Assembly (NCBI RefSeq): GCF_010500815.1
Contig: NZ_JAAAMG010000008.1
Location: forward strand, 1-64,000
Source of the DNA: Jiella pacifica
GTDB taxonomy: Bacteria; Pseudomonadota; Alphaproteobacteria; Rhizobiales; Rhizobiaceae
Length of the DNA stretch: 64,000 nucleotides
Direction of reading: 5' to 3'
The notes beneath the pieces are model-generated. The model was not told the origin of the DNA. It saw nothing but the letters and a program-made list of their open reading frames with translations, and ran no database searches. The translations under genes were made by a program, and so were the position numbers. Shown here piece after piece: positions 4,604 through 64,000 of the stretch. Positions within the stretch are counted from its first letter, which is position 1, and the number at the start of each line of letters is the position of its first letter.

Positions 4604-7159
4604 GTGACCGCTCATCCCTCCCCTTTTGCGCTCGGCCTCATTGCGCCCGACAGCGCCCCCATCCACCTGCCGGAGCCATTCCTCCGGTGGTTCGCGCAGC
4701 ATGGCTGGGCGCCGCGGCCGCATCAGCTGGAGCTGCTGTCGAAGGCGGAGACCGGCGCTTCGGTGCTGTTGATCGCGCCGACCGGGGCGGGCAAGACGCT
4801 GGCGGGGTTCCTGCCGGCGCTGGTCGATCTGTCGCGGCGAAGGCGCCGCAAGCCCGGCGAGCGGCCGCGGGGGGTGCACACGCTCTACATCTCGCCGCTG
4901 AAGGCGCTGGCGACGGACATCGCCCGCAATCTGGAGCGCCCGGTCGAGGAGATCGGGCTTGCCGTCACGATGGAGACCCGCACCGGCGACACGTCGCAGG
5001 TCCGCCGGCAGCGCCAGAAGCTGAAGCCGCCGGACATCCTGCTCACCACCCCCGAGCAGCTGGCGCTGCTGATCGCCGGCAAGGACGCGGCGGACTTCTT
5101 TTCCGACCTTCGCTACGTCGTCTTCGACGAATTGCATTCGCTCGTCACGTCGAAGCGCGGGCATCTCCTGGCGCTCGGCCTGGCGCGGCTGCGCAAGCTC
5201 AGGCCGGAGCTCCAGACAATAGGCCTGTCGGCGACGGTCTCCGAGCCGGCGGAGCTCTGCCGCTGGCTGGTGGCGCAGACGCCTGGGGCGGCTCCGGAAG
5301 CCGATCTCATCACTGTCGAGGGCGGGGCGAAGCCCGACATCTCCATCCTCGAATCCGAGGAGCGGGTGCCCTGGCAGGGGCATACGGCGCGCTATGCGCT
5401 GCCGGAGATCTACGAGGCGATCAAGGCGCACAAGACGACGCTGCTCTTCGTCAACACCCGCAGCCAGGCGGAGCTCCTCTTCCAGGAGCTTTGGCGTATC
5501 AACGACGACACGCTGCCGATCGCGCTGCATCATGGCTCGCTCGACGTCGGGCAGCGGCGCAAGGTCGAGGCGGCGATGGCGCGGAACGAACTGCGCGCCG
5601 TCGTGGCCACCTCGACGCTCGATCTTGGCATCGACTGGGGCGACGTCGATCTCGTCATCCACGTGGGCGCGCCAAAAGGTGCCTCGCGGCTGGCGCAGAG
5701 GATCGGCCGGGCGAACCACCGGATGGACGAGCCGTCCAAGGCGATCCTCGTGCCGGCCAACCGCTTCGAGGTGATGGAGTGCCGGGCGGCGCTCGACGCC
5801 AACTATCTGGGGCATCAGGATACGCCGCCGCTGCGGGACGGCGCGCTCGACGTGCTGGCCCAGCACGTCCTTGGTATGGCCGTGGCGGCACCGTTCCGGA
5901 CCGAAGATCTCTATGAAGAAGTCACGTCAGCGGCGCCCTATGCGAGCCTTGCCCGCGAGACCTTCGAGCGGATCGTCGAATTCGTCGCCACCGGCGGCTA
6001 TGCGCTGAAGGTCTATGAGCGCTATGCCAAGATCAGGCTGACCGCGGACGGCACCTGGCGGCTCACCCATCCGCGCTTCGCGCAGCAGTACCGGATGAAT
6101 GCCGGCACCATTATCGAAGCACCGATGCTGGAGATCCGGATGATCCGGCGCCGCACGGCCTCGGCGATTGCCCGCGGCGGCCGGGCGCTCGGCAAGATCG
6201 AGGAGGCGTTCCTGGAGACGCTCTCGCCCGGCGACACCTTTCTCTTCGCCGGCGAGGTGCTGCGCTTCGAGGGGATCCACGAGACGTCGTGCCTCGTCAC
6301 CAAGGCGGCCAGCGAAGAGCCGAAGGTGCCCTATTACGGCGGCTCGAAGTTTCCGCTGACCACGTACCTCGCCAAGGAAGTGCGGGCGATGCTGGCCGAC
6401 CCCGCCCGCTGGTCGGCGCTGCCGGACCAGGTGCGCGACTGGCTGTCGCTCCAGAAGCTGAAGTCGGTCATTCCGGGCCCGAACGACCTCCTGGTCGAGA
6501 CCTTTCCGAACGGCCGGATGTTTCACATGGTGCTTTACCCGTTCGAAGGTCGCCTCGCCCACCAGACCCTCGGCATGCTGCTCACCCGGCGCCTCGAGCG
6601 CGCACGGGCGATGCCGCTCGGCTTCGTTGCGACGGATTATTCGATCTCGATCTGGGGCCGGCGGGACATAGGCGAGATGATCGCAGGCGGATCGCTCTCC
6701 CTCGACGCCCTCTTCGACGAGGACATGCTGGGCGACGATCTGGAAAGCTGGATGGCCGATTCATGGCTCCTGAAGCGCAGCTTCCGGCAATGCGCGGTCA
6801 TTTCCGGTCTGATCGAAAAGCGCCATCCGGGCCAGGAGAAGACCGGACGGCAGGTCACCGTCTCGTCCGACCTCGTCTATGACGTCCTGCGCGCCCACGA
6901 GCCTGATCACATCCTGATGCAGGCGACCTGGGCGGATGCCGCGACCGGGCTTTTAGACGTTTCCCGCGTCTCGGATCTCCTCGCCCGCGTCAAGCACCAC
7001 ATCGTCCACATCGATCTCGACCAGATCTCGCCGCTGGCCGTGCCGGTGATGCTGGAAATCGGCCGCGAGAGCGTCGTCGGCGAGGCCCGCGACGCCGATC
7101 TGCGCGACGCCTCGCGGGAGGCGATGATCGCGCTGGCGATGGGTGAGCCCGGCGGCTGA
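4604..7159 (+). CDS. Ligase-associated DEXH-box helicase (Lhr type)
   Basis: An 851-aa superfamily 2 helicase of the Lhr group, expected to unwind DNA or RNA-DNA hybrids during repair. Motif I is APTGAGKT (about residues 58-65). Motif II is DELH (about 175). Further along come a motif III-like LSATVSE, VNTRSQAE in the second RecA-like domain, and ATSTLDLGIDWG with QRIGRANHR (motifs V and VI). The C-terminal half matches the winged-helix/DUF4910-like region of Lhr core proteins. The start is GTG at 4604. The short form and its nearness to pdeM fit the bacterial ligase-associated repair set, but the ATP-dependent ligase and the exonuclease are not in this window. Confidence 0.9.
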   Translation: MTAHPSPFALGLIAPDSAPIHLPEPFLRWFAQHGWAPRPHQLELLSKAETGASVLLIAPTGAGKTLAGFLPALVDLSRRRRRKPGERPRGVHTLYISPLKALATDIARNLERPVEEIGLAVTMETRTGDTSQVRRQRQKLKPPDILLTTPEQLALLIAGKDAADFFSDLRYVVFDELHSLVTSKRGHLLALGLARLRKLRPELQTIGLSATVSEPAELCRWLVAQTPGAAPEADLITVEGGAKPDISILESEERVPWQGHTARYALPEIYEAIKAHKTTLLFVNTRSQAELLFQELWRINDDTLPIALHHGSLDVGQRRKVEAAMARNELRAVVATSTLDLGIDWGDVDLVIHVGAPKGASRLAQRIGRANHRMDEPSKAILVPANRFEVMECRAALDANYLGHQDTPPLRDGALDVLAQHVLGMAVAAPFRTEDLYEEVTSAAPYASLARETFERIVEFVATGGYALKVYERYAKIRLTADGTWRLTHPRFAQQYRMNAGTIIEAPMLEIRMIRRRTASAIARGGRALGKIEEAFLETLSPGDTFLFAGEVLRFEGIHETSCLVTKAASEEPKVPYYGGSKFPLTTYLAKEVRAMLADPARWSALPDQVRDWLSLQKLKSVIPGPNDLLVETFPNGRMFHMVLYPFEGRLAHQTLGMLLTRRLERARAMPLGFVATDYSISIWGRRDIGEMIAGGSLSLDALFDEDMLGDDLESWMADSWLLKRSFRQCAVISGLIEKRHPGQEKTGRQVTVSSDLVYDVLRAHEPDHILMQATWADAATGLLDVSRVSDLLARVKHHIVHIDLDQISPLAVPVMLEIGRESVVGEARDADLRDASREAMIALAMGEPGG

Positions 7160-50844: not shown

Positions 50845-52089
50845 CTACCCCATCTTCCCCGGGTTGAGCACGCCCTTCGGATCGAACTGCTCCTTCAGCC
50901 GGTGCGACAGCCCTGCCAATGGCCCCGGCTGCGGCTCGAACACGGCCGTCGCCGCCCGAACACTCTCCGACGCCCGCACCAGCGTCGCGTGGCCGCCGCC
51001 GAAGCGGCGGAGCGTTGCGCGAACCAGATCGGCTTCGGGCTCGCCCGTCTCCATCTTCAGCCAGACGAGGCCGCCCTGCCAGTCATAGAAGGCGTCGATC
51101 GCCGCCTGCATCCTCAGGCTCATGACGATCTCGTGCGCCCGCGTCGGCGTGACCGACAGACGCCAGACGGGCTTCTGCGTTCCGTCGACGAAGGGGCGGA
51201 CGTCGCGGACGTCGCGCCAGAGCCGCCGCGAAGCCTGCGGATCCAACCGCTCGACTTTTCCGACCTTTTCCAGCCCCCGTCCGAGATGGGCGGCCCGCGC
51301 CTCGACCGACGGGCCGAAGCCGTCGATGCGGATGAGCGTCGCGGCATCGTTGCCGAGCGCGCCGTCGGCGACGCGGGCGGCGACATACATCGGCAGATGC
51401 GCCGCACCCGAGACCTCCGCCGAGGAGCCCATGGAAGCGGCCATCGCGCCGGCCGCCTCTGCGTCCGACAGGCCGCGCAGCACCAGCGTCGTCTCGGTCT
51501 CGCATTTCGGCAGGACCTTGATGGTGATCTCGCTCATCACCGCCAGCGTCCCGTAGGAGCCGGTGAGGCCCTTCGACAGATCGTAGCCGGTGACGTTCTT
51601 GACCACCCGGCCGCCGGACTTGAAGATTTCGGCCCGCCCCGAGACGGCCCGGACGCCGAGGACGTGATCGCGGGCGGCACCCTGCTTCAGCCGCCGCGGA
51701 CCGGAAAGGTTGCAGGCGACGACGCCGCCCAGCGTCCCCTGCCCGGCGCAGAGCCCGTGCAGCGGGCCGTAATCCATCGGCTCGAATTCCAGCCGCTGCC
51801 CATGCGCGTCGACCAGCGCCTCGATCTCGGCGATCGGGGTGCCGGCTTTGGCTGAGAGCACCAGCTCTTCCGGCTCATACAGCGTGACGCCGGACATCTT
51901 AGCGAGCGACAGCGTTCGCGCCGCCTGCACCGGCCGGCCGAGCCCGGCCTTGGAACCCGTCCCCTCGATCGCCAGCGGCTCCTCGGCCGCGACGGCGGCG
52001 GCGACGATGTCGCGGATGTCGGCTTCGGATTGGGGGTGGAGGATGGTGGCGGCGCTATCGTCCTGCGTCATCGATCGGGCACTGCTCAT
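50845..52089 (-). CDS. glcE: Glycolate oxidase FAD-binding subunit
   Basis: A 414-aa flavoprotein of the PCMH-type FAD-binding family. ATILHPQSEADIRDIVAAAV and GTGSKAGLGRP begin the FAD domain, and GTLGGVVACNLSGPRRLKQG with ARDHVLGVRAVSGR follow. It ends FDPKGVLNPGKMG, the GlcE/GlcD C-terminal motif. It works with GlcD and GlcF. I chose ATG 52089, which overlaps the Uma2 stop as ATGA; MTQDD at 52071 is a close alternative. Confidence 0.9.
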   Translation of the reverse strand: MSSARSMTQDDSAATILHPQSEADIRDIVAAAVAAEEPLAIEGTGSKAGLGRPVQAARTLSLAKMSGVTLYEPEELVLSAKAGTPIAEIEALVDAHGQRLEFEPMDYGPLHGLCAGQGTLGGVVACNLSGPRRLKQGAARDHVLGVRAVSGRAEIFKSGGRVVKNVTGYDLSKGLTGSYGTLAVMSEITIKVLPKCETETTLVLRGLSDAEAAGAMAASMGSSAEVSGAAHLPMYVAARVADGALGNDAATLIRIDGFGPSVEARAAHLGRGLEKVGKVERLDPQASRRLWRDVRDVRPFVDGTQKPVWRLSVTPTRAHEIVMSLRMQAAIDAFYDWQGGLVWLKMETGEPEADLVRATLRRFGGGHATLVRASESVRAATAVFEPQPGPLAGLSHRLKEQFDPKGVLNPGKMG

Positions 52090-52676
52090 CCGAGATCGGT
52101 CCGGGCATAGAGGTCGCGGAGAAGGCAGGAGAAGCCGAATTCCGGCAGGTCGATGCGGTCGTCCGGCGAGCGGTAGACCAGCCCCTTCCATCCGTTCGAG
52201 CGAGACCAAACCTCGATCGCCACGTCGGTCTGGGACAAAATCAGGACGTGGAGGCAATCGGGGTGATCGGCGTAGCGCATCCGCTTGGTGCTGATGAAAT
52301 CAGGGGCATTGGAGTCGGAAAGAACTTCCGCGGCAAGATAGAAGCGCTCGGCAAAATAGACGCCGGTCGGAACACGATCGACGACGGCGACGTCGACCTG
52401 CGGCCGAAAGCCCGGATGACCCGGGACGCAAAGACCGATCTCTCTCATGGCGTCGAGATCGGGCCGCACGACATCGAGCGCATCGTTCAGGAGACGCTCG
52501 AGGTTCGAACCAATACGCTGATGCTTCAGGCTCGGCGGATGCATCATCTGGATCGGCTCCCCCTCGATCAGTTCCCAGCGTTCGTCCTCGCCACGTGCTT
52601 CCAAAAACTTCAGGAATCGCGCCTCGTCCATCGGCGGCTCGTCGCGCAGCGAGGGAAGTCGTTCGATCGCGCTCAT
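52086..52676 (-). CDS. Uma2-family restriction-fold endonuclease
   Basis: A 196-aa protein with the Uma2 pattern. ERWELIEGE comes near 32-40. Candidate active-site residues of the PD-(D/E)xK fold are Asp95 (QVDVAVVD), Glu117 (AAEVLS) and Lys131 (STKRMRYADH). Their biological role is unknown; the family is widespread and multicopy. It lies between glcD (15 bases) and glcE (4-base overlap). Confidence 0.82.
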   Translation of the reverse strand: MSAIERLPSLRDEPPMDEARFLKFLEARGEDERWELIEGEPIQMMHPPSLKHQRIGSNLERLLNDALDVVRPDLDAMREIGLCVPGHPGFRPQVDVAVVDRVPTGVYFAERFYLAAEVLSDSNAPDFISTKRMRYADHPDCLHVLILSQTDVAIEVWSRSNGWKGLVYRSPDDRIDLPEFGFSCLLRDLYARTDLG

Positions 52677-52691
52677 TGCATTCTCCTCCCT

Positions 52692-54191
52692 TCAGAACCT
52701 CGGCAAATCCGGAAACGCCACCTGTCCCTTGTGGACATGCATGCGGCCGAGTTCGGCGCAGCGGTGCAGCGTCGGGAACACCTTGCCGGGATTGAGCAGG
52801 TGCTTGTCGTCGAAGGCGCACTTGACCCGCTGCTGGTGCTTCAGGTCGGTCTCGTCGAACATTTCCGGCATCAGGTCGCGCTTCTCGACGCCGACGCCGT
52901 GCTCGCCGGTCAAGACACCGCCGACCGCCACGCAGAGCCTGAGGATGTCATTGCCGAACTCCTCCGCCCGGTGGAGTTCGCCCTCCTTGTTGGCGTCGTA
53001 GAGGATCAGCGGGTGGAGGTTGCCATCGCCGGCATGGAAGACGTTGGCGACCCGCAGGCCGTATTTCTCCGACATCGCCTTCATGCCGGCCAGCACCTTC
53101 GGCAGTTCCTTGCGCGGGATCGTGCCGTCCATGCAGTAGTAGTCCGGCGAAATGCGCCCGACGGCCGGGAAGGCCGCCTTGCGCCCGGCCCAGAAGGCGG
53201 CGCGTTCCTCTTCCGACTGCGACACCCGGCAGGTGACCGCGCCGTTGGCATTGGCGATGCCCTCGACTTCCGCGAGAAGATGGTCGACCTCCGCCCCCGG
53301 CCCGTCGAGCTCGACGATTAGCAGCGCCTCGACGTCGGTCGGATAGCCGGCATGGACGAAATCCTCCGCCGCGCGGATCGCCGGCCGGTCCATCATCTCC
53401 ATGCCACCGGGAATGATCCCCTTGGCGATGATCGCGGCGACGCATTCGCCGGCTTCCTCGGAGGTCGGAAAGCCGATGAGCACCGCCCGGGCGGTCTCGG
53501 GCTTCTGCAGAATGCGCACCGTCACCTCGGTGACGACGCCGAGCAACCCTTCAGAGCCGGTCATCAGGCCGAGCAGGTCGTAGCCCTCGGCGTCGAGATG
53601 CTTGCCGCCGAGCCGCATCACCTCGCCCTCGATGGTGACGAATTCGATGCCCAAGACGTTGTTCGCCGTCAGGCCATATTTCAGGCAGTGCACGCCGCCC
53701 GAATTCTCCGCGACATTGCCGCCGATCGAACAGGCGATCTGCGACGAGGGGTCCGGCGCATAGTAGAAACCATGGCCAGCCACGGCATGGGTGATGCCGA
53801 GATTGGTGACGCCCGGCTGCACCACGGCGCAGCGATTGTCGTAGTCGATCTCCAGCACCCGGTTGAACTTCGACAGGACCAGCAGCACGCCGTCCTCGAG
53901 CGGCAGCGCGCCCCCGGACAGCGACGTGCCCGAGCCGCGTGGCACGACGGCGATATCCTCCCGATGGCAGTATTTCAGCACGGCGGCGACCTGATCGACG
54001 GTGGAGGGCAGGACGACGACGAGCGGCAGCTGGCGGTAGGCGGTCAGGCCGTCGCTCTCGAAGACCGCCATCTCGTTCGCCGCATCGACGACGCCTTCCC
54101 CCGGCACGATCGCGCGCAACGCCTCGACGATCGCACGCCGACGGGCGAGGATGGCCTCGGACGGCTTCGGCATCATCACGGACATCGGCAA
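52692..54191 (-). CDS. glcD: Glycolate oxidase large FAD subunit
   Basis: A 499-aa FAD-linked 2-hydroxyacid dehydrogenase and the first gene of the glc unit. The FAD-binding fold has VVPRGSGTSLSGGALP and SIGGNVAENSGGVHCLKYG. The C-terminal part has FHAGDGNLHPLILYD and GVLTGEHGVGVEKRDLM, the substrate-contacting motifs of GlcD. It oxidises glycolate (or D-lactate) to glyoxylate. The several in-frame ATGs near the start (54191-54173) cannot be told apart. Confidence 0.94.
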   Translation of the reverse strand: MPMSVMMPKPSEAILARRRAIVEALRAIVPGEGVVDAANEMAVFESDGLTAYRQLPLVVVLPSTVDQVAAVLKYCHREDIAVVPRGSGTSLSGGALPLEDGVLLVLSKFNRVLEIDYDNRCAVVQPGVTNLGITHAVAGHGFYYAPDPSSQIACSIGGNVAENSGGVHCLKYGLTANNVLGIEFVTIEGEVMRLGGKHLDAEGYDLLGLMTGSEGLLGVVTEVTVRILQKPETARAVLIGFPTSEEAGECVAAIIAKGIIPGGMEMMDRPAIRAAEDFVHAGYPTDVEALLIVELDGPGAEVDHLLAEVEGIANANGAVTCRVSQSEEERAAFWAGRKAAFPAVGRISPDYYCMDGTIPRKELPKVLAGMKAMSEKYGLRVANVFHAGDGNLHPLILYDANKEGELHRAEEFGNDILRLCVAVGGVLTGEHGVGVEKRDLMPEMFDETDLKHQQRVKCAFDDKHLLNPGKVFPTLHRCAELGRMHVHKGQVAFPDLPRF

Positions 54192-54285
54192 TCTCCCAGT
54201 CTTTGCCTCAGCTTATGCAGTCGCGGCAGGTTCGTCCACAAGACCGGGCAGGCTCACGACTGCGCGGGGCGAAGATCGGCCAGGT

Positions 54286-55587
54286 TCAATGGTCGCCGTC
54301 CTTTCCCGGACGGACGTGACGGCGGCGGATACGCCCGACCACCGTCCAAACGGCGAGAAGCGCGATCGGCACGAAGAGCGCGGTCAGGACCGTCGAGGAG
54401 ACCGGAAAGCCTTCGTGCTCCAGCCCCTTCGCAACATAGCCGAACAGCCCGACGACATAATAGCCGATCGCCGCCACCGACAGGCCCTCGACGGTCTGCT
54501 GCAGCCGCAGCTGCAGCTGCGCCCGGCGATTCATCGACGACAGGAGATCGCGGTTCTGGTGTTCGAGTTCGACGTCGATCCGGGTGCGCAGGAGATTGGC
54601 GGATCGGGCGAGCTTTTCCGAAAGATTGGCCTGGCGCTCCTCCACCGATCGGCAGGTGCGCATCGCCGGCGCCATGCGCCGCTTCAGGAACGCGCTCCAG
54701 CTTTCCTGGCCGGCGAGCGGCTGCTCGACCACCCCAGCGAGGCGCTCGCGGACGATCTCGTCGTAGGCCCGGCTCGCCCCGAACCGGTAAAGCACCGAAG
54801 CGGCCGACGCCTCGACTGCGGCGGCGGCCAGCGTGATCTCCTGCAACAGTTCGCGCGAGTGGCCCGGCCCCGCCTTCATCTCCTCGGTGATCTGCATCAG
54901 GCGGCCCTCCAGCGCCTGGACCTCCGGCCCCACTGACTGGGCGAGAGGCAGGCCAAGCAAAGCGAGCGTCCGGTAGATCTCGATCTCGACGAGACGCATC
55001 GCCAGCGCCCCCGCGCGGGCCGGCGGCAACCCGTCGTCGAGAACGAGGATGCGCGTCAGGCCGTCGCCGTCCTGGCGAAAATCGGTCGCGGCATGGGCGA
55101 GGCCCGCCTCCATCACCGAAAAGCAGAAGCTCGTCTTGTCGAAGATCTCGAGGGCTGCCTGGCCGTCCGCGTCGTTCGGCCGCATTTCGAGATGGACGCC
55201 GCCGATCAGCGGGCCTGGCGCCTCGAAATCGGCGCCGAAGGGATGGCCCGCCACCGGATCGCCGAACCGCTCCGGCACCGGGCCTTCCCAGGAATAGGTG
55301 CAGAATTCGGTGTGGCGTTCCCAGCGCAGCTTGCCCTTGCCGAAGGCGAAGGCATGGGTGCGCGCGTCCTTGGCCGGCGGCGGAACGCCCCGGCGTACCG
55401 ACATGTCGGAAAGGATCTGATGGTCGCGCACACCATGGTCGGCGTTCATGAAGGCGAGGACGATGAGCGCCCGCGGCAGCTTCATCAGGGGAAACGGGCG
55501 CGCGTGTAATTCGCCGAGGACGAGCGCCCGGCGCGGATCCTGTTCAAAGCGTTCGAGCGACTGTCGTGCGAATGTGATCGACGTCAT
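54286..55587 (-). CDS. DUF3422 membrane protein
   Basis: A 433-aa protein of the DUF3422 family, which is common in alphaproteobacteria and of unknown function. It starts with ELHARPFPLMKLPRALIVLA, a conserved opening. A long coiled-coil-like central part (about 220-350) is followed by two C-terminal helices (SVAAIGYYVVGLFGYV and STVLTALFVPIALLAVWTVV). It lies between the glc unit (same strand) and lut genes (opposite strand). Confidence 0.85.
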   Translation of the reverse strand: MTSITFARQSLERFEQDPRRALVLGELHARPFPLMKLPRALIVLAFMNADHGVRDHQILSDMSVRRGVPPPAKDARTHAFAFGKGKLRWERHTEFCTYSWEGPVPERFGDPVAGHPFGADFEAPGPLIGGVHLEMRPNDADGQAALEIFDKTSFCFSVMEAGLAHAATDFRQDGDGLTRILVLDDGLPPARAGALAMRLVEIEIYRTLALLGLPLAQSVGPEVQALEGRLMQITEEMKAGPGHSRELLQEITLAAAAVEASAASVLYRFGASRAYDEIVRERLAGVVEQPLAGQESWSAFLKRRMAPAMRTCRSVEERQANLSEKLARSANLLRTRIDVELEHQNRDLLSSMNRRAQLQLRLQQTVEGLSVAAIGYYVVGLFGYVAKGLEHEGFPVSSTVLTALFVPIALLAVWTVVGRIRRRHVRPGKDGDH

Positions 55588-55773
55588 GCGGCCCCCTCCC
55601 CGAGAGACCGCCCTTGCTACAGGATGGCGGTTCGGGAGAAAACGCCAATTTGCGATCGTTCCAAATCCGGCTCAGGATCGTTACATGAGTCGGACCATCT
55701 CGACAAAGGTCGACCGAGGCTTACCGAGCGCGGTGCCGGCCGGAGATGACAGTGGAGTTTCAGTGCCTTGACC

Positions 55774-56574
55774 ATGAACGGCATGACAGACGGCGCCCCC
55801 TCGACGGCCCCCGCACAGACAACGCCGACCGTGGCGCTGTTCGTCACCTGCCTCGTCGACCTGTTCCGGCCGAGCGTCGGCTTTGCAGCGATCAAGCTTC
55901 TGGAGGGCGCCGGCTGCAAGGTGGTCGTCCCCGCATCCCAGACCTGCTGCGGCCAGCCGGCCTATAATTCCGGCGACCGCGAGGACACCAAGGCGATCGC
56001 CCGGCAGGTGATCGAGACCTTCGAGGGTTACGACTACGTCGTCGCGCCGTCCGGCTCCTGCGGCTCGACGCTGCGGAAGCATTATCCGGAGCTCTTCGCC
56101 GAGGACCCGGCATGGCACGAGCGGTCGGAGCGGTTTTCCCAAAAGGTCTACGAGCTCGTCAGCTTCCTCACCGACGTTAGGGGCGTCACCGCGGTGAATG
56201 CCACCCTTTCCACGACGGTCACCTACCACGATTCCTGCTCCGGCCTGCGCGAGCTCGGCATCCGCGAGCAGCCGCGGCGGCTATTGAAGAGCGTCGAGGG
56301 CCTGACGCTGAAGGAGCTTCCCGAGGCCGACGTCTGCTGCGGTTTCGGCGGCACCTTCTGCATCAAATATCCGGACGTTTCCAACGCCATCGTCGGCAAG
56401 AAGGCCAAGCACGTCGCCTCGACGGGCGCCGAGATGCTGCTCGCCGGCGATCTTGGTTGCCTGATGAACATGGACGGCAAGCTGAAGCGCGAGGAGATCG
56501 GCGTCGAGGTGCGGCACGTCGCCGAGGTACTGGCTGGCATGACCGACAAGCCGCCGATCGGGGGCAAGCTGTGA
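55774..56574 (+). CDS. lutA: Lactate utilisation protein LutA (LldE)
   Basis: A 266-aa subunit with two CCG domains ([14 protein letters not shown] and [14 protein letters not shown]). It forms the LutABC complex, oxidising L-lactate to pyruvate. ATG 55774 fits (MNGMTDG); MTDG at 55783 is also possible. Its stop overlaps the GTG start of the macro-domain gene, so LutB and LutC come only after three unrelated genes. Confidence 0.93.
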
Positions 56575-57110
56575 CGACCATCCGGCGCGGCGATACGGCG
56601 ATCGAGGTGATAACAGCCGACATCACCACGCTGGAGGTGGACGCCGTCGTCAACGCCGCCAACCAACAGCTCAAGGGCGGCGGCGGCGTCGACGGCGCGA
56701 TCCACCGCGCCGCCGGCAAGGCCAGGCTTCAGGAGGCTTGCCGCACCATTGGCGGCTGCCCGACCGGTGAAGCCAGGATCACCGAGGGCTTCGACCTGCC
56801 GGCCCGTTCCATCGTCCATGCGGTCGGCCCGCGCTGGAAGGACGGGACGAAGGGCGAGGACGATCTGCTGGCCGGCGCCTACCGCCACTCCTTCACGCTG
56901 GCTGCAGAACACGGCGTCCGCTCCATCGCCTTCCCGGCGATCTCGACCGGCATCTACGGCTTCCCGAAAGAGCGCGCGGCAACGATCGCGGTCTTGCAGT
57001 GCTTGGCCGCAGCCGATTCTGGCAAGTTCGAGCGGATCGTGCTCTGCTGCTTTTCCAGCGGCGACGCGGAAATCCACGCCGCTGCGCTGACACGGGAGGC
57101 GACGTCATGA
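56571..57110 (+). CDS. Macro-domain protein (ADP-ribose hydrolase type)
   Basis: A 179-aa MacroD/YmdB-type protein. [20 protein letters not shown] (27-46) is the ADP-ribose loop and [11 protein letters not shown] is the second. It would remove O-acetyl- or protein-linked ADP-ribose. The GTG start overlaps the lutA stop (GTGA), and its stop overlaps the ATG of the next DUF29 gene (ATGA), so it is coupled on both sides. Confidence 0.9.
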
Positions 57111-57571
57111 GCCTTGCCAAGGACAGCCGGCAGATCGCAGGCACAGCCCGCTACGACGAGGACTTCACCGCCTGTGCCTTCGAACAGGCCGAGCTGCTGC
57201 GGCGCGGCCAACTCGCGGATGCCGATCTGCCCCATCTCGCCGAGGAGATTGAGAGCTTGGGCAATGAGCAGATCCACGCGATGGAGTCCTTTTATACGCT
57301 GCTGATCTTTCATCTCCTGAAGTGGCAGTTTCAACCGCAGCGGCGAACGCGGTCGTGGGATCTAACGATCCACAATGCGCGAGGCCAGATCGCCCGAGGG
57401 GAAAAGCGCAATCAGACCCTGCGCGCTGGCGCGGAAGAAATCGTCAACGACATCTATTCCCAATCCCGTGGTTCAGCGGCCAAGGAAATCGGCCGGCCGA
57501 TCAACACCTTCCCCATGACCTGTCCCTATTCGCTCGACTTCTTGCGCGATCAGAACGCAATGCCGGAGTGA
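57107..57571 (+). CDS. DUF29 family protein, first copy
   Basis: A 154-aa cytoplasmic helical protein. [30 protein letters not shown] and [13 protein letters not shown] are the DUF29 pattern; the end [20 protein letters not shown] is also typical. DUF29 has no known activity but is often multicopy in accessory regions. It starts as ATGA with the macro gene. The second copy follows after 4 bases. Confidence 0.88.
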
Positions 57572-57575
57572 GACG

Positions 57576-58034
57576 ATGAGCAACGCACCGAGGATCGAAC
57601 CGGCCGACGATCTCTATGAAAAGGACGGATACGCTTGGTCTAAGCGCGAAGCCGAGCTTTTGCGCCAGCGCCGGTTTGCGGAAGTTGACCTCGCCAACGT
57701 CATCGAGGAGATCGAGAGCGTGGGAAAATCCGAACGGCGCGCGTTGAAATCGAGTTATCGGGTGCTCATTCAGCATCTTCTGAAATGGCAGTTTCAGCCC
57801 GAGCGGCGTTCGCGATCGTGGGCGGATACCATCAGGACGCAGCGGACCGAAGTCGAATCCGACGAGGAGGACAACCCGTCCCTCAAGGCGGAATCCGACG
57901 CGATCGTAGTCTCGGCTTATCGTCTCGCCAGAAAGCAGGCGGCCGACGAAACCTGCCTTCCTCTCGCGACTTTTCCCGATACCTGCCCCTATACCGCCAA
58001 CCAGCTTCGCGACCGCGACTACCTGCCCGAATAG
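57576..58034 (+). CDS. DUF29 family protein, second copy
   Basis: A 152-aa paralogue of the gene before it, sharing IEEIESVGKSERRALKSSYR, LKWQFQPERRSRSW and FPDTCPYTANQLRDRDYLPE. The two copies differ at many positions, so the duplication is old or each was acquired separately. It lies 10 bases before lutB. Confidence 0.88.
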   Translation: MSNAPRIEPADDLYEKDGYAWSKREAELLRQRRFAEVDLANVIEEIESVGKSERRALKSSYRVLIQHLLKWQFQPERRSRSWADTIRTQRTEVESDEEDNPSLKAESDAIVVSAYRLARKQAADETCLPLATFPDTCPYTANQLRDRDYLPE

Positions 58035-58044
58035 GCTCCCCTTC

Positions 58045-59472
58045 ATGCAGATCACCTCACAGACCTTCAAGGCCAACACCGTCAAGGCGCTCGCCGACGT
58101 CGACCTGCAGCGGGCGCTGCGCCACGTCGAGAAGGGCTTCATCGGCAAGCGCCAGAAGGCGGCCGACGCCCTGCCGGAGTTCGACGCGCTGCGCGACAAT
58201 GCGGTGAAGATCAAGAACCACACGCTGAAGCATCTCGACCTCTACATCGAGGCCTATGTGGCGAAGGTCGAGGCGTCGGGCGGCAAGGTGCATTTCGCCG
58301 AGGACGCCGACCATGCGCGGCGGATCTTCCTCGACATCGCCAAGCGCCGGAAGGCCAAGACCGTCACCAAGGGCAAGACGATGATCTCCGAGGAGATCGG
58401 GCTGAATGCCTTTCTGGAAGAAAACGGCATCCTCCCCGTCGAGACCGATCTCGGCGAATACATCATCCAGCTCAGAGGCGAGCATCCGAGCCACATCATC
58501 GCGCCTGCGGTCCACATCAACCGCGACCAGGTCGAGGCCGATTTCCGCAGGTTCCACGTCCACCTGGACCCGGAACGGGATCTGGTGAAACCGGAAACGC
58601 TGCTGTCGGAGGCGCGTCAGATCCTGCGCCAGAAATATGGCGAGGCCGACATCGGCGTCACCGGCGCAAATTTCCTCATCGCCGAGACGGGCACCTCGGT
58701 GATCGTCACCAACGAGGGCAATGGCGATCTCACTCAGTTGATGGGCAAGTGCCACGTCGTGCTCGCATCGCTGGAAAAGCTCGTGCCGACGCTGGAGGAC
58801 ACCGCGCAGATCCTGCGCGTCCTCGCCCGTTCGGCCACCGGCCAGGAGATGAGCGTCTACACGACCCTGTCGACTGGCCCGAAGCGGGCCGAGGACGAGG
58901 ACGGGCCGGAGGAATATCACGTCATCCTCCTCGACAACGGCCGCTCCAACATGCTCGGCACCGAGTTCGAGGAGATGCTGCGCTGCATCCGCTGCGGCGC
59001 CTGCATGAACCACTGCCCGGTCTACCACGCCGTCGGCGGCCACTCTTACGGCTGGGTCTATCCCGGCCCGATGGGCGCGGTGCTCACCCCGTCCCTCATC
59101 GGCGTCGACAAGGCCGGGCATCTGCCGAACGCTTCCACCTTCTGCGGGCGCTGCGAGGCCGTCTGCCCGATGCGCATTCCGCTGCCGAAGATGATGCGGC
59201 ATTGGCGCGAGAAGGAGTTCGAGAGCCATCTGCAGCCAAAGACGGCCCGCGCCGGGCTCGGCGTCTGGGCCTATCTCGCCCGGCGGCCGAAGCTCTACCG
59301 GGCGGCGGTCTCCTTCGCCATGCCGGCGCTGAAGCTTCTGGCCGGGCGCAAGGGGCGCTTCCGCTCGCTGCCGCTTGCCGGCGGCTGGACCAAATGGCGC
59401 GATCTGCCGGCGCCGGAGGGCCGCACTTTCATGCAGGCCTATGCCCAGAGCGGCCACGGAGATGCGAAATGA
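58045..59472 (+). CDS. lutB: Lactate utilisation iron-sulfur protein LutB (LldF)
   Basis: A 475-aa subunit with two [4Fe-4S] sites (CIRCGACMNHCPVYHAVGG and CGRCEAVCPMRIPLPKMMRH). The N-terminal half is the LutB/LUD domain with ITGANFLIAETGT-like residues (VTGANFLIAETGTSVIVTNE). It transfers electrons in the LutABC complex. It overlaps lutC by 4 bases. Confidence 0.93.
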   Translation: MQITSQTFKANTVKALADVDLQRALRHVEKGFIGKRQKAADALPEFDALRDNAVKIKNHTLKHLDLYIEAYVAKVEASGGKVHFAEDADHARRIFLDIAKRRKAKTVTKGKTMISEEIGLNAFLEENGILPVETDLGEYIIQLRGEHPSHIIAPAVHINRDQVEADFRRFHVHLDPERDLVKPETLLSEARQILRQKYGEADIGVTGANFLIAETGTSVIVTNEGNGDLTQLMGKCHVVLASLEKLVPTLEDTAQILRVLARSATGQEMSVYTTLSTGPKRAEDEDGPEEYHVILLDNGRSNMLGTEFEEMLRCIRCGACMNHCPVYHAVGGHSYGWVYPGPMGAVLTPSLIGVDKAGHLPNASTFCGRCEAVCPMRIPLPKMMRHWREKEFESHLQPKTARAGLGVWAYLARRPKLYRAAVSFAMPALKLLAGRKGRFRSLPLAGGWTKWRDLPAPEGRTFMQAYAQSGHGDAK

Positions 59473-60155
59473 GCGGATCGACGCGCGACGCGGTGATGGG
59501 GCGCATTCGCCGCGCCGTCGGGGCAACCCCGGCGAACGATGCGGCGCGGCGGGCGGCCGTGTCGGGGCGGCTCTCGGGCGCGCCGAAGGGGATCGTTCCC
59601 GAACGCGGGCATTTGCCGCCCGCCGAACGGCTCGATCTGTTCATCGCCATGGCGACCAGGGCCGACGCGACGGTGACGCGGTTGAAGGCCTATGCCGAGG
59701 TTCCGCAAGAAGTCGCCGCCTTCCTGCGCGAGCGCAACCTTCCCGCCGCGATCAGGATGGGGCGCGATCCGCGCCTTGCCAGCCTCGACTTTTCCGACAC
59801 CGCTTTGACCGTGACGACCGGTCCGAGCGAGGGCGACGATCTCGCCAGCCTTTCCCATGCGATGGGCGGCATCGCCGAGACCGGCACGCTGGTCCTGACC
59901 TCGGGGCCGGACAATCCGACGAGCCTCAACTTCCTGCCGGAATACCACCTCGTCGTTCTCGACGCCGCGGACGTTGCCGGCGACATGGAGGCGGTGCTGA
60001 CGCGGGTAAGGGAGCGTCACGGCAAGGGCGTCATGCCGCGCTCGGTGAACTTCGTCACCGGCCCGTCGCGCTCGGCCGACATCGAGCAGACCCTGCTTCT
60101 CGGCGCCCACGGGCCGCGGAGTTTGCACATCGTGGTGGTGGGAGAGCCGGCCTAG
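59469..60155 (+). CDS. lutC: Lactate utilisation protein LutC (LldG)
   Basis: A 228-aa LUD-domain protein. SHAMGGIAETGTLVLTSGPD and LNFLPEYHLVVLDAADV are the family core. It completes the LutABC set. ATG 59469 overlaps the lutB stop (ATGA). Its own stop (60153-60155) overlaps by 3 bases the end of the antisense Uma2 fragment. Confidence 0.92.
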   Translation: MSGSTRDAVMGRIRRAVGATPANDAARRAAVSGRLSGAPKGIVPERGHLPPAERLDLFIAMATRADATVTRLKAYAEVPQEVAAFLRERNLPAAIRMGRDPRLASLDFSDTALTVTTGPSEGDDLASLSHAMGGIAETGTLVLTSGPDNPTSLNFLPEYHLVVLDAADVAGDMEAVLTRVRERHGKGVMPRSVNFVTGPSRSADIEQTLLLGAHGPRSLHIVVVGEPA

Positions 60156-60286
60156 CCGAGCAGCGGTCCCGGCACGAATTCGATCCCGTCGAAGATCTCC
60201 GCGAGCGGCAGGACGATGCCGAGCGCCGGGATCGCGATCTGCTGATCGAGACCGACGACCCGCCTCTCCTGGGACCAAAAGTCCCC
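60152..60286 (-). pseudogene. C-terminal fragment of a Uma2-like gene
   Basis: On the minus strand, about 44 residues before a TAG read like the end of Uma2 proteins: RRVVGLDQQIAIPALGIVLP followed by LAEIFDGIEF. Uma2 relatives end with a similar 'LPLPALGLELPLAEIYRGVEF' stretch. Nothing matching the rest of a Uma2 protein lies upstream; at 60355 the DUF2171 gene begins. It is therefore a remnant, and it is not the same sequence as the intact Uma2 gene in the glc operon, whose ending differs. Confidence 0.55.
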
Positions 60287-60354
60287 GGCGGGGTTTGGGG
60301 CGAAGCCCGATGATCCGAAGGAAGCTGCCCCGAAGTTCCGCTCGCGCGGCGATG

Positions 60355-60612
60355 TCAGGCCTGTCGCCCGTCTTCCTCCTCCTCGAAGGAAACGGCGACG
60401 TCCGCATTCGCCGACAGTCGGACGCGATCGCCTTCGACTTCCGCCACAAGCCCAAGCGGGACGAAGTGATGGTGCCCGCGGTGCGATCCCTCGCCGGCGT
60501 CCTTCTTCGTCAGCTTGATCCGGTCGTCCTCGACCTTGTCCACCGTCCCGACGTGAACCCCGTCGGCTCCGATGACTTCCATGTGCTCGCGAATTCCGTG
60601 ATGGTCAGCCAT
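60355..60612 (-). CDS. DUF2171 small protein
   Basis: An 85-aa acidic and His-rich protein with REHMEVIGADGVHVGTVDKV and DRIKLTKKDAGEGSHRGHHH, the DUF2171 pattern (PRC-barrel-like strands). Function is unknown. The start follows after GGACGGAGCGCAGCT with GGAG near the expected ribosome-site position. Confidence 0.85.
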   Translation of the reverse strand: MADHHGIREHMEVIGADGVHVGTVDKVEDDRIKLTKKDAGEGSHRGHHHFVPLGLVAEVEGDRVRLSANADVAVSFEEEEDGRQA

Positions 60613-60897
60613 AGCTGCGCTCCGTCCTCATGAGGCGCCCGGCGGGCACCGTCGCGGTGTCACATAGAGCCGGGCGTCCGGCAATCGAGCACGCCGGCGA
60701 AGAGCGCGGTGGCGCCCTGGCCTCAGCGAAACCCTCTCCTGTCCTGCAGCCATCTTCCTATTGAAGGAGGGAGCGGCCAGCATGGACGCGAAGGTCCGAT
60801 GGGCGATGCTCGTCGTTACCGCGCCGCAGAGTTGCGGCCGGGAGCCGGAGCCTGCCGCGATCGTCGGCGGATGGGTGAACCGCTCGAACAGATCGAC

Positions 60898-61134
60898 CTA
60901 TTCGGCTTCCGAACGTGCCGCCTTCAGTTCGGCGATCTTGAATTCCTCTTCCTCGCGGTCTCGAGCGCCGTCCGCAAGACCTTGCCAAGCATCGCGCGCG
61001 CTTTCGAACCGGCCCTTCACCGATACCAGACTGGCTGCCTTCATTTCCTCGTCGGCGTCATCCGCACGCGCTTGGAAAACGGAGCTGTGTTCCTTGGCCA
61101 TGAAATATCTTTCGTCGTTGGTCGTCCCCGGCAT
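60898..61134 (-). CDS. Small helical hypothetical protein
   Basis: A 78-aa charged protein (NDERYFMAKEHSSVFQARAD and ARDREEEEFKIAELKAARSE), probably a two-helix bundle. I do not recognise a family with certainty. ATG at 61134 or 61101 is possible. It is flanked by gaps with no obvious gene. Confidence 0.5.
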   Translation of the reverse strand: MPGTTNDERYFMAKEHSSVFQARADDADEEMKAASLVSVKGRFESARDAWQGLADGARDREEEEFKIAELKAARSEAE

Positions 61135-61372
61135 ATAGGGCAGCCGCGCAGGAATCCGTCATCACGACATCAGCGACGCTCGCACCATCCGCAATGGAGA
61201 ACGCAAGCATCCAGCCCGAGGGCCGAAGGATCGGGCCCAGCAAAAGCGCGCCCACATACGGCCCGCGCCGTCCCTCCCCGGTGCCGACGGCGGCTTTTCG
61301 CGTCCGGCAGATCCCGTCGATGCGCGAGAGTATCGACGGCAGGATAACTGGCTTGAACGGCGGGAGCCGCAG

Positions 61373-61894
61373 CTAACCGAAGAGCCACGTCCCGAGCAGG
61401 CGGTGGAAAGGGAACGTGAAAAAACCGGCGATCAGCAGGGAACCGACGACCATCGCCCGGGCAGCACTCTGGTGGCGCCCGATCTGTCTCCTTCGGGCGG
61501 TTATCGCGATCGTCGGTACCTGGATCATGACCCAGACCGAAAGAACATGGAGGATGCTGTAGCCGCTGTCGTCCGCGCCCACGATGAAGAGGGTGATCAG
61601 CGCCGTTCCGAACATCAGCGTCACCCATATCCGGCCTATGGCCCGGTGGGTGGATCCGCCCTTCGGTCGCCAGAGCTGGACGACCGTCAGCGCCAGCGCG
61701 AAGACGATCGTCAGCAGATGCGCCCAAACGAGCACAGGCGCCTCCGCCCAACGGGCGTGTCCGCGACCAATCGCCACGAGAACGACGCACAGCAGCGCCA
61801 GAGCCGCCAGCGACAGGCCCCGATCGAACGAGCTCGCGCGCGCCGGATTCCGGACGTGCACTTCCGCCGCAGTCGCGCTCATCGTCAACACCAC
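61373..61894 (-). CDS. DUF2306 membrane protein
   Basis: A 173-aa protein with four to five helices. PVLVWAHLLTIVFALALTVV, then GSTHRAIGRIWVTLMFGTAL and FIVGADDSGYSILHVLSVWV, match DUF2306, whose role is not known. The start is either 61894 (MVLTMSA) or 61882. Confidence 0.8.
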   Translation of the reverse strand: MVLTMSATAAEVHVRNPARASSFDRGLSLAALALLCVVLVAIGRGHARWAEAPVLVWAHLLTIVFALALTVVQLWRPKGGSTHRAIGRIWVTLMFGTALITLFIVGADDSGYSILHVLSVWVMIQVPTIAITARRRQIGRHQSAARAMVVGSLLIAGFFTFPFHRLLGTWLFG

Positions 61895-62026
61895 CAGTTA
61901 CCGATCGCAATCGGGAATCTCCAATTCTCCGCTAGCATGAAGGATGCATACGGAGAAGGTTGCGACGAGAAGGTTCCGCTTCCTGCGCTTGGCAGACGAT
62001 GATCTCGACGACCGCTATTGACCATC

Positions 62027-62243
62027 ATGGCAAAGGTCTACGGAGGCAAAATACCCACTGTGAGCAGGTTGAACGCCAAGGCGTTCTCAGAACTCGCCGC
62101 CGCCCCGAAGACCCCGATCGAAATGCGCGAGGAAGTCGAGACGATGATCGAGGCCAGGAACGGCGAGCTTCATCACCGAGCGTCTCGTCGTGTCCGGCAG
62201 GACCATCACAGTCGAAGCAGGCCCGCGACGTCTGACCGGGTAG
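62027..62243 (+). pseudogene. Small hypothetical gene with an apparent frameshift
   Basis: The N-terminal frame reads MAKVYGGKIPTVSRLNAKAF, then AAPKTPIEMREEVETMIEAR. Right after NGE (about 62166) the protein-like reading moves to the +1 frame: FITERLVVSGRTITVEAGPR and RLTG to a TAG at 62241-62243. Read together this gives a compact product of about 70 aa. Either a base was gained, or this is a sequencing error. I cannot name a family. Confidence 0.4.
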
Positions 62244-62367
62244 CCATGTCGCATCCCATGTCGTGGAGCTGCCGAGCTTACTCGGCCTTCTGCGAACCAA
62301 GGGAAATCGCAGCAGCATGCAGGCGACATGAAATCGGGCGGAAGCGTTTCTGAACGACTGGTCCGAA

Positions 62368-62442
62368 TGGTGCCGGCGGAGAGGATCGAACTCCCGACCT
62401 TCGGTTTACAAAACCGCTGCACTACCGCTGTGCTACGCCGGC
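62368..62442 (-). tRNA. tRNA-Thr (anticodon TGT)
   Basis: On the minus strand the gene folds as a full cloverleaf: acceptor GCCGGCG paired with CGCCGGC, a D-arm, and an anticodon arm with loop TTTGTAA placing TGT at 34-36. The T arm is GGGAG-TTCGATC-CTCTCC-type (GGAG/CTCC pairing). CCA is encoded, 75 bases in all. The anticodon stem has a G-A pair at its end. Confidence 0.95.
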
Positions 62443-62543
62443 GCGGTGCTTGCGATATCACATCGCAATGATCGGAAACACCCCAAAACGCGCTCGGCGA
62501 TCACGCCTGAAGCGCGCCGGCAACGGTCGCTGGGGAGAGCGCC

Positions 62544-63290
62544 TCAGCCGGCGAGACGGGCGAGATCGGCAGCCGAGATGCGGCCGTCGTGCAGCGCCGT
62601 GGCGATCAGGGCGCCGGCGACGCCCATCTCCTTCAGCACCGCAAGATCCTGCGGGCCGCGCACGCCACCGGCGGCGAAGACCCGTCGCCCCCCTGCCCGC
62701 GCAACGATCTCGGCAAGCCGTGCGAAGTCCGGTCCGGCGCCGCTGCCGACCTTGGCCAGGGTCATGACGATCAGCGTCTCGGGCCACAGGCTTTCGTCGT
62801 CTAAGAGTTCGGGCGGCCCAAGGAAGACGTCGCCGCGAAAGTCGAGGGACAGCGCAAGATCGGTTTCCTGCGAGAGCCGGCGAACGGTCTCGGCATCCTC
62901 CACCGATTCGCTGCCGACGACGCACAGCACGCCCGGCAGCGCCTCGATCGCCATGGCTTCGTCGAAACTCCCGACGCCGGCGTCGAGCCAGAGTGTGACG
63001 CCGGGATGGGCCGCAACGAGGGCGGCCATCAGATCCGCGTCGGGCTCGCCCCGCCGGCGATGCTTCTCGCTCTCGGCCACCACGCCTTCGACCGCCAGAC
63101 CTTCGATCGCGTCGAGATCGGCGATGTAGAGCGCCTCGAACGGGTGCAGGGCCAAAAGCCCCCGGGCGACGTCGAGGGGCCCGGCACCCGACGACAGCGG
63201 CGTCTCGATCGGCCGGTAGTTGGCCCGATCGCCCATCACGCCGCGCACGACGAGCGAGTTCTTGACGTCGAGTACCGGGATGACTTGCAT
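62544..63290 (-). CDS. HisA/HisF-related TIM-barrel protein (C1 pathway type)
   Basis: A 248-aa (beta/alpha)8 protein that resembles HisA. It begins MQVIPVLDVKNSLVVRGVMG and has ALYIADLDAIEG and VFAAGGVRGPQDLAVLKEMG. The Asp pair positions of HisA (first D in VLDVK, second in LDFRGD) are there, but the family members beside H4MPT-linked genes act in C1 metabolism and not in histidine synthesis. It is divergent from the TIGR03123 gene, with 168 bases between. Confidence 0.78.
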   Translation of the reverse strand: MQVIPVLDVKNSLVVRGVMGDRANYRPIETPLSSGAGPLDVARGLLALHPFEALYIADLDAIEGLAVEGVVAESEKHRRRGEPDADLMAALVAAHPGVTLWLDAGVGSFDEAMAIEALPGVLCVVGSESVEDAETVRRLSQETDLALSLDFRGDVFLGPPELLDDESLWPETLIVMTLAKVGSGAGPDFARLAEIVARAGGRRVFAAGGVRGPQDLAVLKEMGVAGALIATALHDGRISAADLARLAG

Positions 63291-63458
63291 CTTCGACCTT
63301 GAGACAGCAACAGGTTCGATGGTCTTATACGCATGGCCGGGCAGAGGACCAAGGGTGGCCTCGACGATCGCCCGGACGGGCGGATCCGGCCACCGAAGGG
63401 TTTCTTGCCGCAGCCGGACAGGCCCGGCGCAGCAGGATGAATGCGAGACGTTGATGTC

Positions 63459-64000
63459 ATGACGAGAACACTGGGCTGGGATGTCGGCGGCGCCCATCTG
63501 AAGGCGGCCCTTGCCGAGAACGACCGCATCCTCAAGGTCTGGCAGGAGCGAACGCCGATCTGGCAGGGCCTGGAACATCTCCAGACCGGCCTCGCGGCGA
63601 TCCTCGAAGATTGCGATCTCGAAGCCGTCGAGCGCCACGCCATCACCATGAGCGGCGAACTCTCCGACGTCTTTGCCTCCCGCCGCGAGGGGGTGGAGAA
63701 ACTGGCTCGGCTCTTCGCCGAGAAGCTGTCGGGCGACGTCTCGCTCTATGGCGGGGCGGCCGGCTTCCTGTCGCCGGGCGATGCCCGCTCCCACGCCGAC
63801 GAGATCGCCTCGGCCAACTGGCACGCCAGCGCGGCTCTCGCGGCGGCCAGTATCGAAGAGGCGGTGTTCATCGACATGGGCTCGACGACCACCGACGTCG
63901 TTCCCGTCACGGGTGGCGCGGTGAAATCCGCCGGCTTCACCGACAATGCGCGCCTCGCCTGCGGTGAACTCGTCTATCAGGGCTACACCCGCACGCCCCT
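63459..64000 (+). CDS. H4MPT-linked C1 pathway protein (hydantoinase/oxoprolinase-like), partial
   Basis: The gene runs off the right edge; about 180 residues are visible. TRTLGWDVGGAHLKAALAE is the opening of TIGR03123 proteins, and FIDMGSTTTDVVPVTGGAVK is the central ATPase-like (ASKHA) motif. Such genes sit in the methanopterin-dependent formaldehyde oxidation clusters of methylotrophic and related proteobacteria. This suggests more C1 genes beyond the window. Confidence 0.85.
   Translation, partial: MTRTLGWDVGGAHLKAALAENDRILKVWQERTPIWQGLEHLQTGLAAILEDCDLEAVERHAITMSGELSDVFASRREGVEKLARLFAEKLSGDVSLYGGAAGFLSPGDARSHADEIASANWHASAALAAASIEEAVFIDMGSTTTDVVPVTGGAVKSAGFTDNARLACGELVYQGYTRTP

Follow-up and report, generated by a model that had tools for sequence, protein, structure and literature searches.

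The 64,000-nucleotide stretch of Jiella pacifica DNA analyzed here (the window; NCBI RefSeq contig NZ_JAAAMG010000008.1) contains a lutABC locus in which lutA and lutB are separated by a macro-domain gene and two DUF29 genes, DUF29a and DUF29b. On balance, we lean toward interpreting it as an operon for lactate oxidation whose first two genes, lutA and lutB, flank an accessory block, consisting of a lut-linked DUF29 accessory array and a macro gene that rides on the operon independently. The inserted genes are probably dispensable accessory passengers, with DUF29 probably being a lut-linked accessory protein. The closest relatives of these DUF29 proteins are mostly encoded at the same spot of lut operons in related bacteria, which makes DUF29 a candidate partner of the lactate enzymes. 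Both its phylogeny and its position link this DUF29 subfamily to a known enzyme operon, and this provides a concrete hypothesis for DUF29 function. The link worth following is that of DUF29 with lutA-lutB; the ADP-ribose side is less promising.

A DUF29 subfamily in the lutA-lutB slot

Thirty-two lut-linked DUF29 proteins from four families and three Aureimonas proteins formed a single clade in a 95-row DUF29 tree drawn from 154 rows (Shimodaira-Hasegawa-like approximate likelihood ratio test, SH-aLRT, 99). The same clade, with 21 rows, had support of 100/99 in a 63-row bootstrap tree that omits truncated copies and the long-branched L275_1; the duplicate rows L176, L178, and L179 (equal to G035, G239, and G224) were dropped. 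Other DUF29 paralogs retrieved from seven genomes (G000, which is that of the window, G009, G046, G191, G224, G251, and G313) were outside the lut clade in the 95-row tree, and random insertion of unrelated DUF29 genes was ruled out by both trees. The lut-linked rows alone were not monophyletic in the best tree because the Aureimonas rows, which come from outside lut, nest among them, and forced monophyly was not rejected (approximately unbiased test, p-AU 0.104). A third, distant DUF29 of the window's genome (G000:C74:142085-142498, L003) grouped with one of G008.

The tree of LutA and the start of LutB, built from 133 loci, largely follows families, and a single clade of the 18 DUF29-bearing loci was rejected (p-AU 0.00018, with the remnants in G008, G009, and G030 counted as DUF29-bearing). 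Comparison of the two trees therefore places the same DUF29 lineage in the same slot of several LutAB lineages. Gain and loss of DUF29 amounted to five changes on the best LutA+LutB tree, four of them forced by well-supported branches, and the history of the slot may be either an ancestral DUF29 with many losses or several gains. The data do not support G251 having received a complete lutA-DUF29-lutB cassette by transfer: 60-column blocks from the end of LutA and the start of LutB of G251 were 94% and 93% identical to those of its sister, G271, and 61-83% identical to those of six other DUF29-bearing loci compared. DUF29 therefore came to G251 alone or was lost by its relatives.

Recurrence of the arrangement was followed in 12 loci: that of the window, those of nine congeneric genomes (G001-G009), and those of G035 and G030 from the same family. 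The LutA+LutB tree groups all 12 in a single clade (SH-aLRT 99). DUF29 sequence was present between lutA and lutB in all 12 loci. Nine loci (G000-G007 and G035) had at least one full-length DUF29, with one to five units each, and three (G008, G009, and G030) had only remnants, of 25, 84, and 53 residues, with lutB intact; G004 had an additional remnant of 24 residues. The last DUF29 unit of G003, G004, G005, and G035 (L036, L037, L038, and L043) lacked its first 47-48 residues yet kept an open frame of 104-105 amino acids. The spacing was also conserved, with a 3-5 nucleotide (nt) gap at 13 of the 17 DUF29-DUF29 junctions and 8-11 nt ahead of lutB in 11 of the 12 loci. The a-b pair of the window is probably a reduced form of an ancestral array, a-b-(b)-c-d. 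In G001, LutA (L034:5339-6137) is split over two reading frames into pieces that overlap, owing either to an error in the sequence or to a genuine frameshift.

The wider distribution was assessed in an order sample of 297 genomes, where DUF29 was detected in 32 genomes (59 genes), LutB in 150 (E ≤ 1e-100), and a macro gene like that of the window in 89 (E ≤ 1e-10). DUF29 lay directly upstream of lutB in seven genomes from four families (G000, G046, G191, G313, G239, G224, and G251). Because the same gene order recurs in related species and eight of the 59 DUF29 genes occupy the lutA-lutB slot, the arrangement goes beyond chance; recurrence in related species rules out a chance one-off. Positions of the DUF29, LutB, and macro matches were compared by eye, with a few LutB positions not listed, and draft contig ends can conceal neighboring genes. 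We retrieved 117 of the 150 LutB loci and resolved 111, the other six having no upstream lutA match; for the 33 loci that were not retrieved, mostly among the most diverged LutB, absence of DUF29 was judged from match coordinates. The lutA-lutB gap was 150 nt or less in 92 resolved loci, 151-310 nt in three, and more than 310 nt in 16. Seven of the long gaps contained DUF29 (one also with a macro gene) and that of G318 a macro gene alone. The remaining eight (L051, L068, L070, L071, L073, L122, L151, and L160) contained a GNAT acetyltransferase (three loci of one family; two by Pfam), a ParA-like ATPase, an SDR and a MarR gene, DUF6653, or, in two further loci, open reading frames (ORFs) without a Pfam match. 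In a class sample of 337 genomes, DUF29 was detected in 23, of which 21 were new with respect to the earlier samples.

Nei-Gojobori ratios of nonsynonymous to synonymous substitution (dN/dS) were calculated between clade loci, leaving out the split LutA reading of G001; the medians come from pairs that are not independent. Median dN/dS was 0.22 for DUF29a (20 of 21 pairs usable), 0.18 for DUF29b (44 of 45), 0.17 for DUF29c and 0.23 for the truncated DUF29d (six pairs each), and 0.27 for the macro gene (28 pairs), compared to 0.19 for LutA, 0.085 for LutB, and 0.20 for LutC. By these values, both DUF29 and macro are under purifying selection and behave as functional genes for as long as they are kept. 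Both are also easily lost: they are frequently missing or deleted at loci that retain lutB.

Members of DUF29 (PF01724) were found in cyanobacteria, Nitrospirota, gammaproteobacteria, and alphaproteobacteria among the best 80 matches. The model of DUF29b is all-helical, with a mean predicted local distance difference test score of 91.9, and its best match in the PDB was 3FCN (Foldseek probability 0.99 and template modeling score 0.54, but E 0.13 and root mean square deviation 7.9); phmmer matched the same structure at E 0.0019. Nine positions (D17, D38, E45, L69, K70, Q74, W82, R90, and L103) are invariant across 68 aligned DUF29 proteins and may mark a shared binding surface.

The macro gene as a probable separate passenger

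The macro protein aligns with YmdB/MACROD structures over most of its length and contains residues N28, N31, D41, H45, and Y129, by which it is predicted to be a MacroD-type hydrolase. Their counterparts in OiMacroD, N27, N30, D40, H44, and Y134, are named in PMC5413906. In the macro of G003, A replaces T in the STG motif.

Among the 12 clade loci, macro was intact in eight (G000, G001, G002, G003, G005, G006, G035, and G030), was a deletion remnant in G004, and was not found in G007, G008, and G009 at E ≤ 1e-10; a 145-nt spacer in G007 resembles terminal macro residues by eye. The lut macros of the clade formed one group (100/96), which included the macro of G031, a genome of the window's family. 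This closest non-lut macro (L265:1516-3492) adjoins DUF3422, whose homolog is the divergent neighbor of lutA in the window. LutB was not found in G031, where LutA and LutC were not searched genome-wide, and macro here can therefore persist without LutB. The G031 locus looks as if the lut genes left and the macro gene remained.

The macro of G318 branched apart in the best tree, and a single lut-macro clade was not rejected (p-AU 0.169). Upstream of this lone macro (L055, lutB on the plus strand, about 5700-5970) is an inverted repeat around CTAGTGGTCC, which by eye suggested REP-like or mobile sequence. G193 has a different macro (41% identical; L319:5025-5546, minus strand) about 360 nt downstream of lutC and on the same strand. 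Three lineages (the G000 clade, G318, and G193) have a macro inside or next to their lut loci, a pattern that is suggestive but was sought post hoc.

The first-pass annotation of this DNA had regarded the arrangement as the best candidate in the window for an undescribed functional link, and had proposed a search for macro-DUF29 adjacency in other genomes. It had also suggested that the macro could remove ADP-ribose, a putative role for which the macro has the residues of a MacroD hydrolase. The part of this proposal that survives is the link of DUF29 with the lutA-lutB slot, where DUF29 genes of one clade reside; the partnership with macro fared poorly. Adjacency of macro and DUF29 recurs in the window's clade and was seen in that clade alone, so a general macro-DUF29 module is unsupported. 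Ten order-sample genomes had both genes, which were adjacent only in the window's genome, and six order-sample lut operons had DUF29 without macro, while one (G318) had macro without DUF29. Three of the best 80 DUF29 loci were lut loci, one of them (L176) with macro, and no macro homolog was detected near the other 77 at E ≤ 1e-4 in the retrieved DNA. Within the clade itself, four of the 12 loci have no macro or the remnant of one. The macro gene is more likely a clade-specific co-passenger.

The window's genome has one SIR2 gene, on another contig. SIR2 was present in 13 of 15 genomes searched, including the macro-less G007, G008, and G009, and was not found in the macro-bearing G002 and G031; the SIR2 distribution therefore indicates no simple coupling of macro and sirtuin.

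Alternative explanations

Several observations weigh against the favored interpretation. DUF29 was lacking at lutB in 143 of the 150 LutB-bearing genomes of the order sample, in the window's family the lut gap contained neither DUF29 nor macro at 11 further loci with LutB (G017 among them), and adjacency of LutB and DUF29 was found in none of the 14 LutB-bearing class genomes (20 DUF29 genomes searched, the LutB search omitting one DUF29 genome below the family cut-off). Unrelated genes also occur in the lutA-lutB gap, and the site thus tolerates passengers. The lut-type DUF29 genes of Aureimonas are located outside lut, and LutB was not found in the genome of Aureimonas leprariae, so DUF29 can be retained without LutB. 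The fold search found no convincing relative beyond DUF29, the top match being itself a DUF29 protein. Literature searches turned up no paper with DUF29 as a whole word or with its Pfam number, PF01724, and the listed matches of a looser search on the letters do not concern the family, judging by titles and opening lines of abstracts; these searches revealed no published function, and we know of no biochemical function for it. In A. leprariae (L180:5935-6934), the lut-type DUF29 adjoins glcD and is followed after 4 nt by a GNAT-like ORF (by eye); in Aureimonas sp. SK2, two lut-type DUF29 genes are near a GroEL-like ORF (by eye), and the sole LutB-like match is 49% identical. From these contexts, lut-type DUF29 may have a wider range of partners, perhaps the 2-hydroxyacid oxidases that contain a CCG subunit such as LutA or GlcF.

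A possible, though clearly less probable, explanation is that the slot is a neutral passenger site. The gap would then tolerate insertions, DUF29 and macro would have functions unrelated to lactate and simply profit from a promoter at hand, and vertical descent or occasional transfer would account for the DUF29 clade. Nine of the 16 long gaps being without DUF29, the frequent deletion of DUF29 and macro in sister species, and the retention of macro beside DUF3422 in G031 and of DUF29 outside lut in Aureimonas are as expected of such a site, but the slot is occupied across four families by the same DUF29 subfamily rather than by random paralogs, and LutA and LutB largely follow family lines. 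Cooperation of macro and DUF29, for example with DUF29 as the target or adaptor of a LutABC ADP-ribosylation switch reversed by macro, appears improbable. Although their genes overlap by 4 nt in six clade genomes and the macro has the MacroD residues and evolves under purifying selection, the two are adjacent in one clade alone, DUF29 arrays outlast macro loss (G004 and G007), and macro occurs with a DUF29 remnant (G030) or with no DUF29 found within a 3.4-kb locus (G031).

Equally doubtful is the explanation that sirtuins make O-acyl-ADP-ribose (acetyl or lactoyl), which macro removes, a task of its own that would explain its induction together with lactate metabolism. The SIR2 gene of the window's genome and the macros in or beside lut in three lineages are consistent with it, as are the hydrolysis of O-acetyl-ADP-ribose by MacroD-like proteins (PMC5413906) and the lysine delactylase activity of CobB in Escherichia coli (PMC9636275). 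The SIR2 distribution described above argues against it, however, since the gene was not found in two macro-bearing genomes and is kept in three macro-less ones; the G193 macro is only 41% identical and lies about 360 nt past lutC, and a literature search found no paper combining 'macrodomain' and 'lactoyl-ADP-ribose'. A still more elaborate proposal, which we consider very unlikely, is that DUF29 is a subunit or assembly factor of LutABC (perhaps also of GlcDEF) with copy number tuning its dose, that macro returns lactate from sirtuin-made O-lactoyl-ADP-ribose, and that the operon would thereby salvage lactate from protein lactylation as well as oxidize free lactate.

In the interpretation we favor, the accessory block comprises a DUF29 array (a and b) preceded by one gene for a predicted MacroD-type hydrolase. 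The lut-type DUF29 would assist the LutABC iron-sulfur complex, or else a sister 2-hydroxyacid oxidase, in assembly or stability or as an adaptor. The macro protein would hydrolyze ADP-ribose/O-acyl-ADP-ribose substrates independently, its gene riding on the operon in this clade and its product not being a partner of DUF29.

Gene order and comparison with known systems

The coordinates of the lut genes, the inserted genes, and their neighbors are compiled in Table 1. The LutB_C match in lutB, with 26.2 bits, was slightly below the Pfam cut-off of 26.8.

Table 1. Features of the lut locus and adjacent region of the window
Feature	Coordinates	Strand	Evidence
lutA, two CCG cysteine-rich domains	55774..56574	+	Pfam CCG 112.5 bits, two stretches
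Predicted MacroD-type macro domain gene, 179 aa, GTG start	56571..57110	+	PF01661 157.5 bits (cut-off 22)
DUF29a, 154 aa	57107..57571	+	PF01724 123.7 bits (cut-off 22.5); lut-linked clade
DUF29b, 152 aa	57576..58034	+	PF01724 162 bits (cut-off 22.5)
lutB, LUD + 4Fe-4S dicluster	58045..59472	+	PF02589 149.9 bits, Fer4_8 46.8 bits
lutC, LUD	59469..60155	+	PF02589 96.9 bits
DUF3422 gene, divergent neighbor	54286..55587	-	PF11902 485 bits
glcD-like FAD oxidase	52692..54191	-	Homolog adjoins lut-type DUF29 in Aureimonas leprariae
tRNA gene, downstream of region	62371-62442	-	Rfam

ORF coordinates and Pfam matches bear out the first-pass observation that lutA and lutB are split by a macro gene and two DUF29 genes, and the stop/start overlaps that it had described are both present, each of 4 nt. 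The GTG start of macro overlaps the lutA stop (CTGTGACG), and the start of DUF29a overlaps the macro stop (ATGA); macro and the first DUF29 also overlap by 4 nt in G001, G002, G003, G005, and G035. The start of lutC likewise overlaps the end of lutB by 4 nt (ATGA). Gaps of 4 nt between DUF29a and DUF29b and of 10 nt between DUF29b and lutB interrupt this series of overlaps, and continuous translational coupling as far as LutB is therefore unsupported. The accompanying claim that ribosomes reach LutB through translation of the macro and DUF29 genes is not supported, as an obligate route, given the intact lutB of the three clade loci with DUF29 remnants and the short lutA-lutB gaps (150 nt or less) that prevail among the resolved loci. 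The 3' end of DUF29a reads CCG GAG TGA, followed by GACG ahead of the next ATG, and the GGAG could be a putative ribosome-binding sequence for DUF29b. The six genes from lutA to lutC share one strand and appear, from their spacing, to be packed as for co-expression. A simple scan of the region detected no promoter-like site in it and no more terminator-like sites than expected by chance, and the tRNA gene was the sole match in an Rfam scan of positions 52000-64000.

Both DUF29 copies of the window score above the Pfam cut-off of the family, which has a solved structure, 3FCN, from Rhodospirillum rubrum. Compared to other DUF29 proteins, they belong to the subfamily of the lutA-lutB slot and, in the clade, often form a tandem array of variable copy number. 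The macro protein resembles MacroD-type macrodomains (YmdB, MACROD1/2, and OiMacroD) in its near full-length match and in the five OiMacroD residues; in contrast to these, it is encoded inside a lactate operon, and its hydrolase activity is predicted. Pairs of SirTM and zinc-containing macrodomain genes are found in a lipoyl operon context. The window has in common with these pairs (PMC4518038 and PMC11490716) a macrodomain gene tied to metabolic genes, but its macro is of the MacroD type and no sirtuin is encoded in the operon.

The lut genes themselves correspond to the LutABC operon (also YkgEFG and LldEFG) of PMC3924224 in their Pfam domains, with CCG in LutA, LUD and Fer4_8 in LutB, and LUD in LutC. 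The excerpt of PMC3924224 drawn on here calls the precise roles of the Lut proteins unclear, and an accessory factor would therefore bear on these roles. It presents a three-gene operon and, within that excerpt, mentions no such inserts, whereas lutA and lutB of the window are not adjacent but lie 1473 nt apart between homology matches, split by the macro gene and two DUF29 genes.

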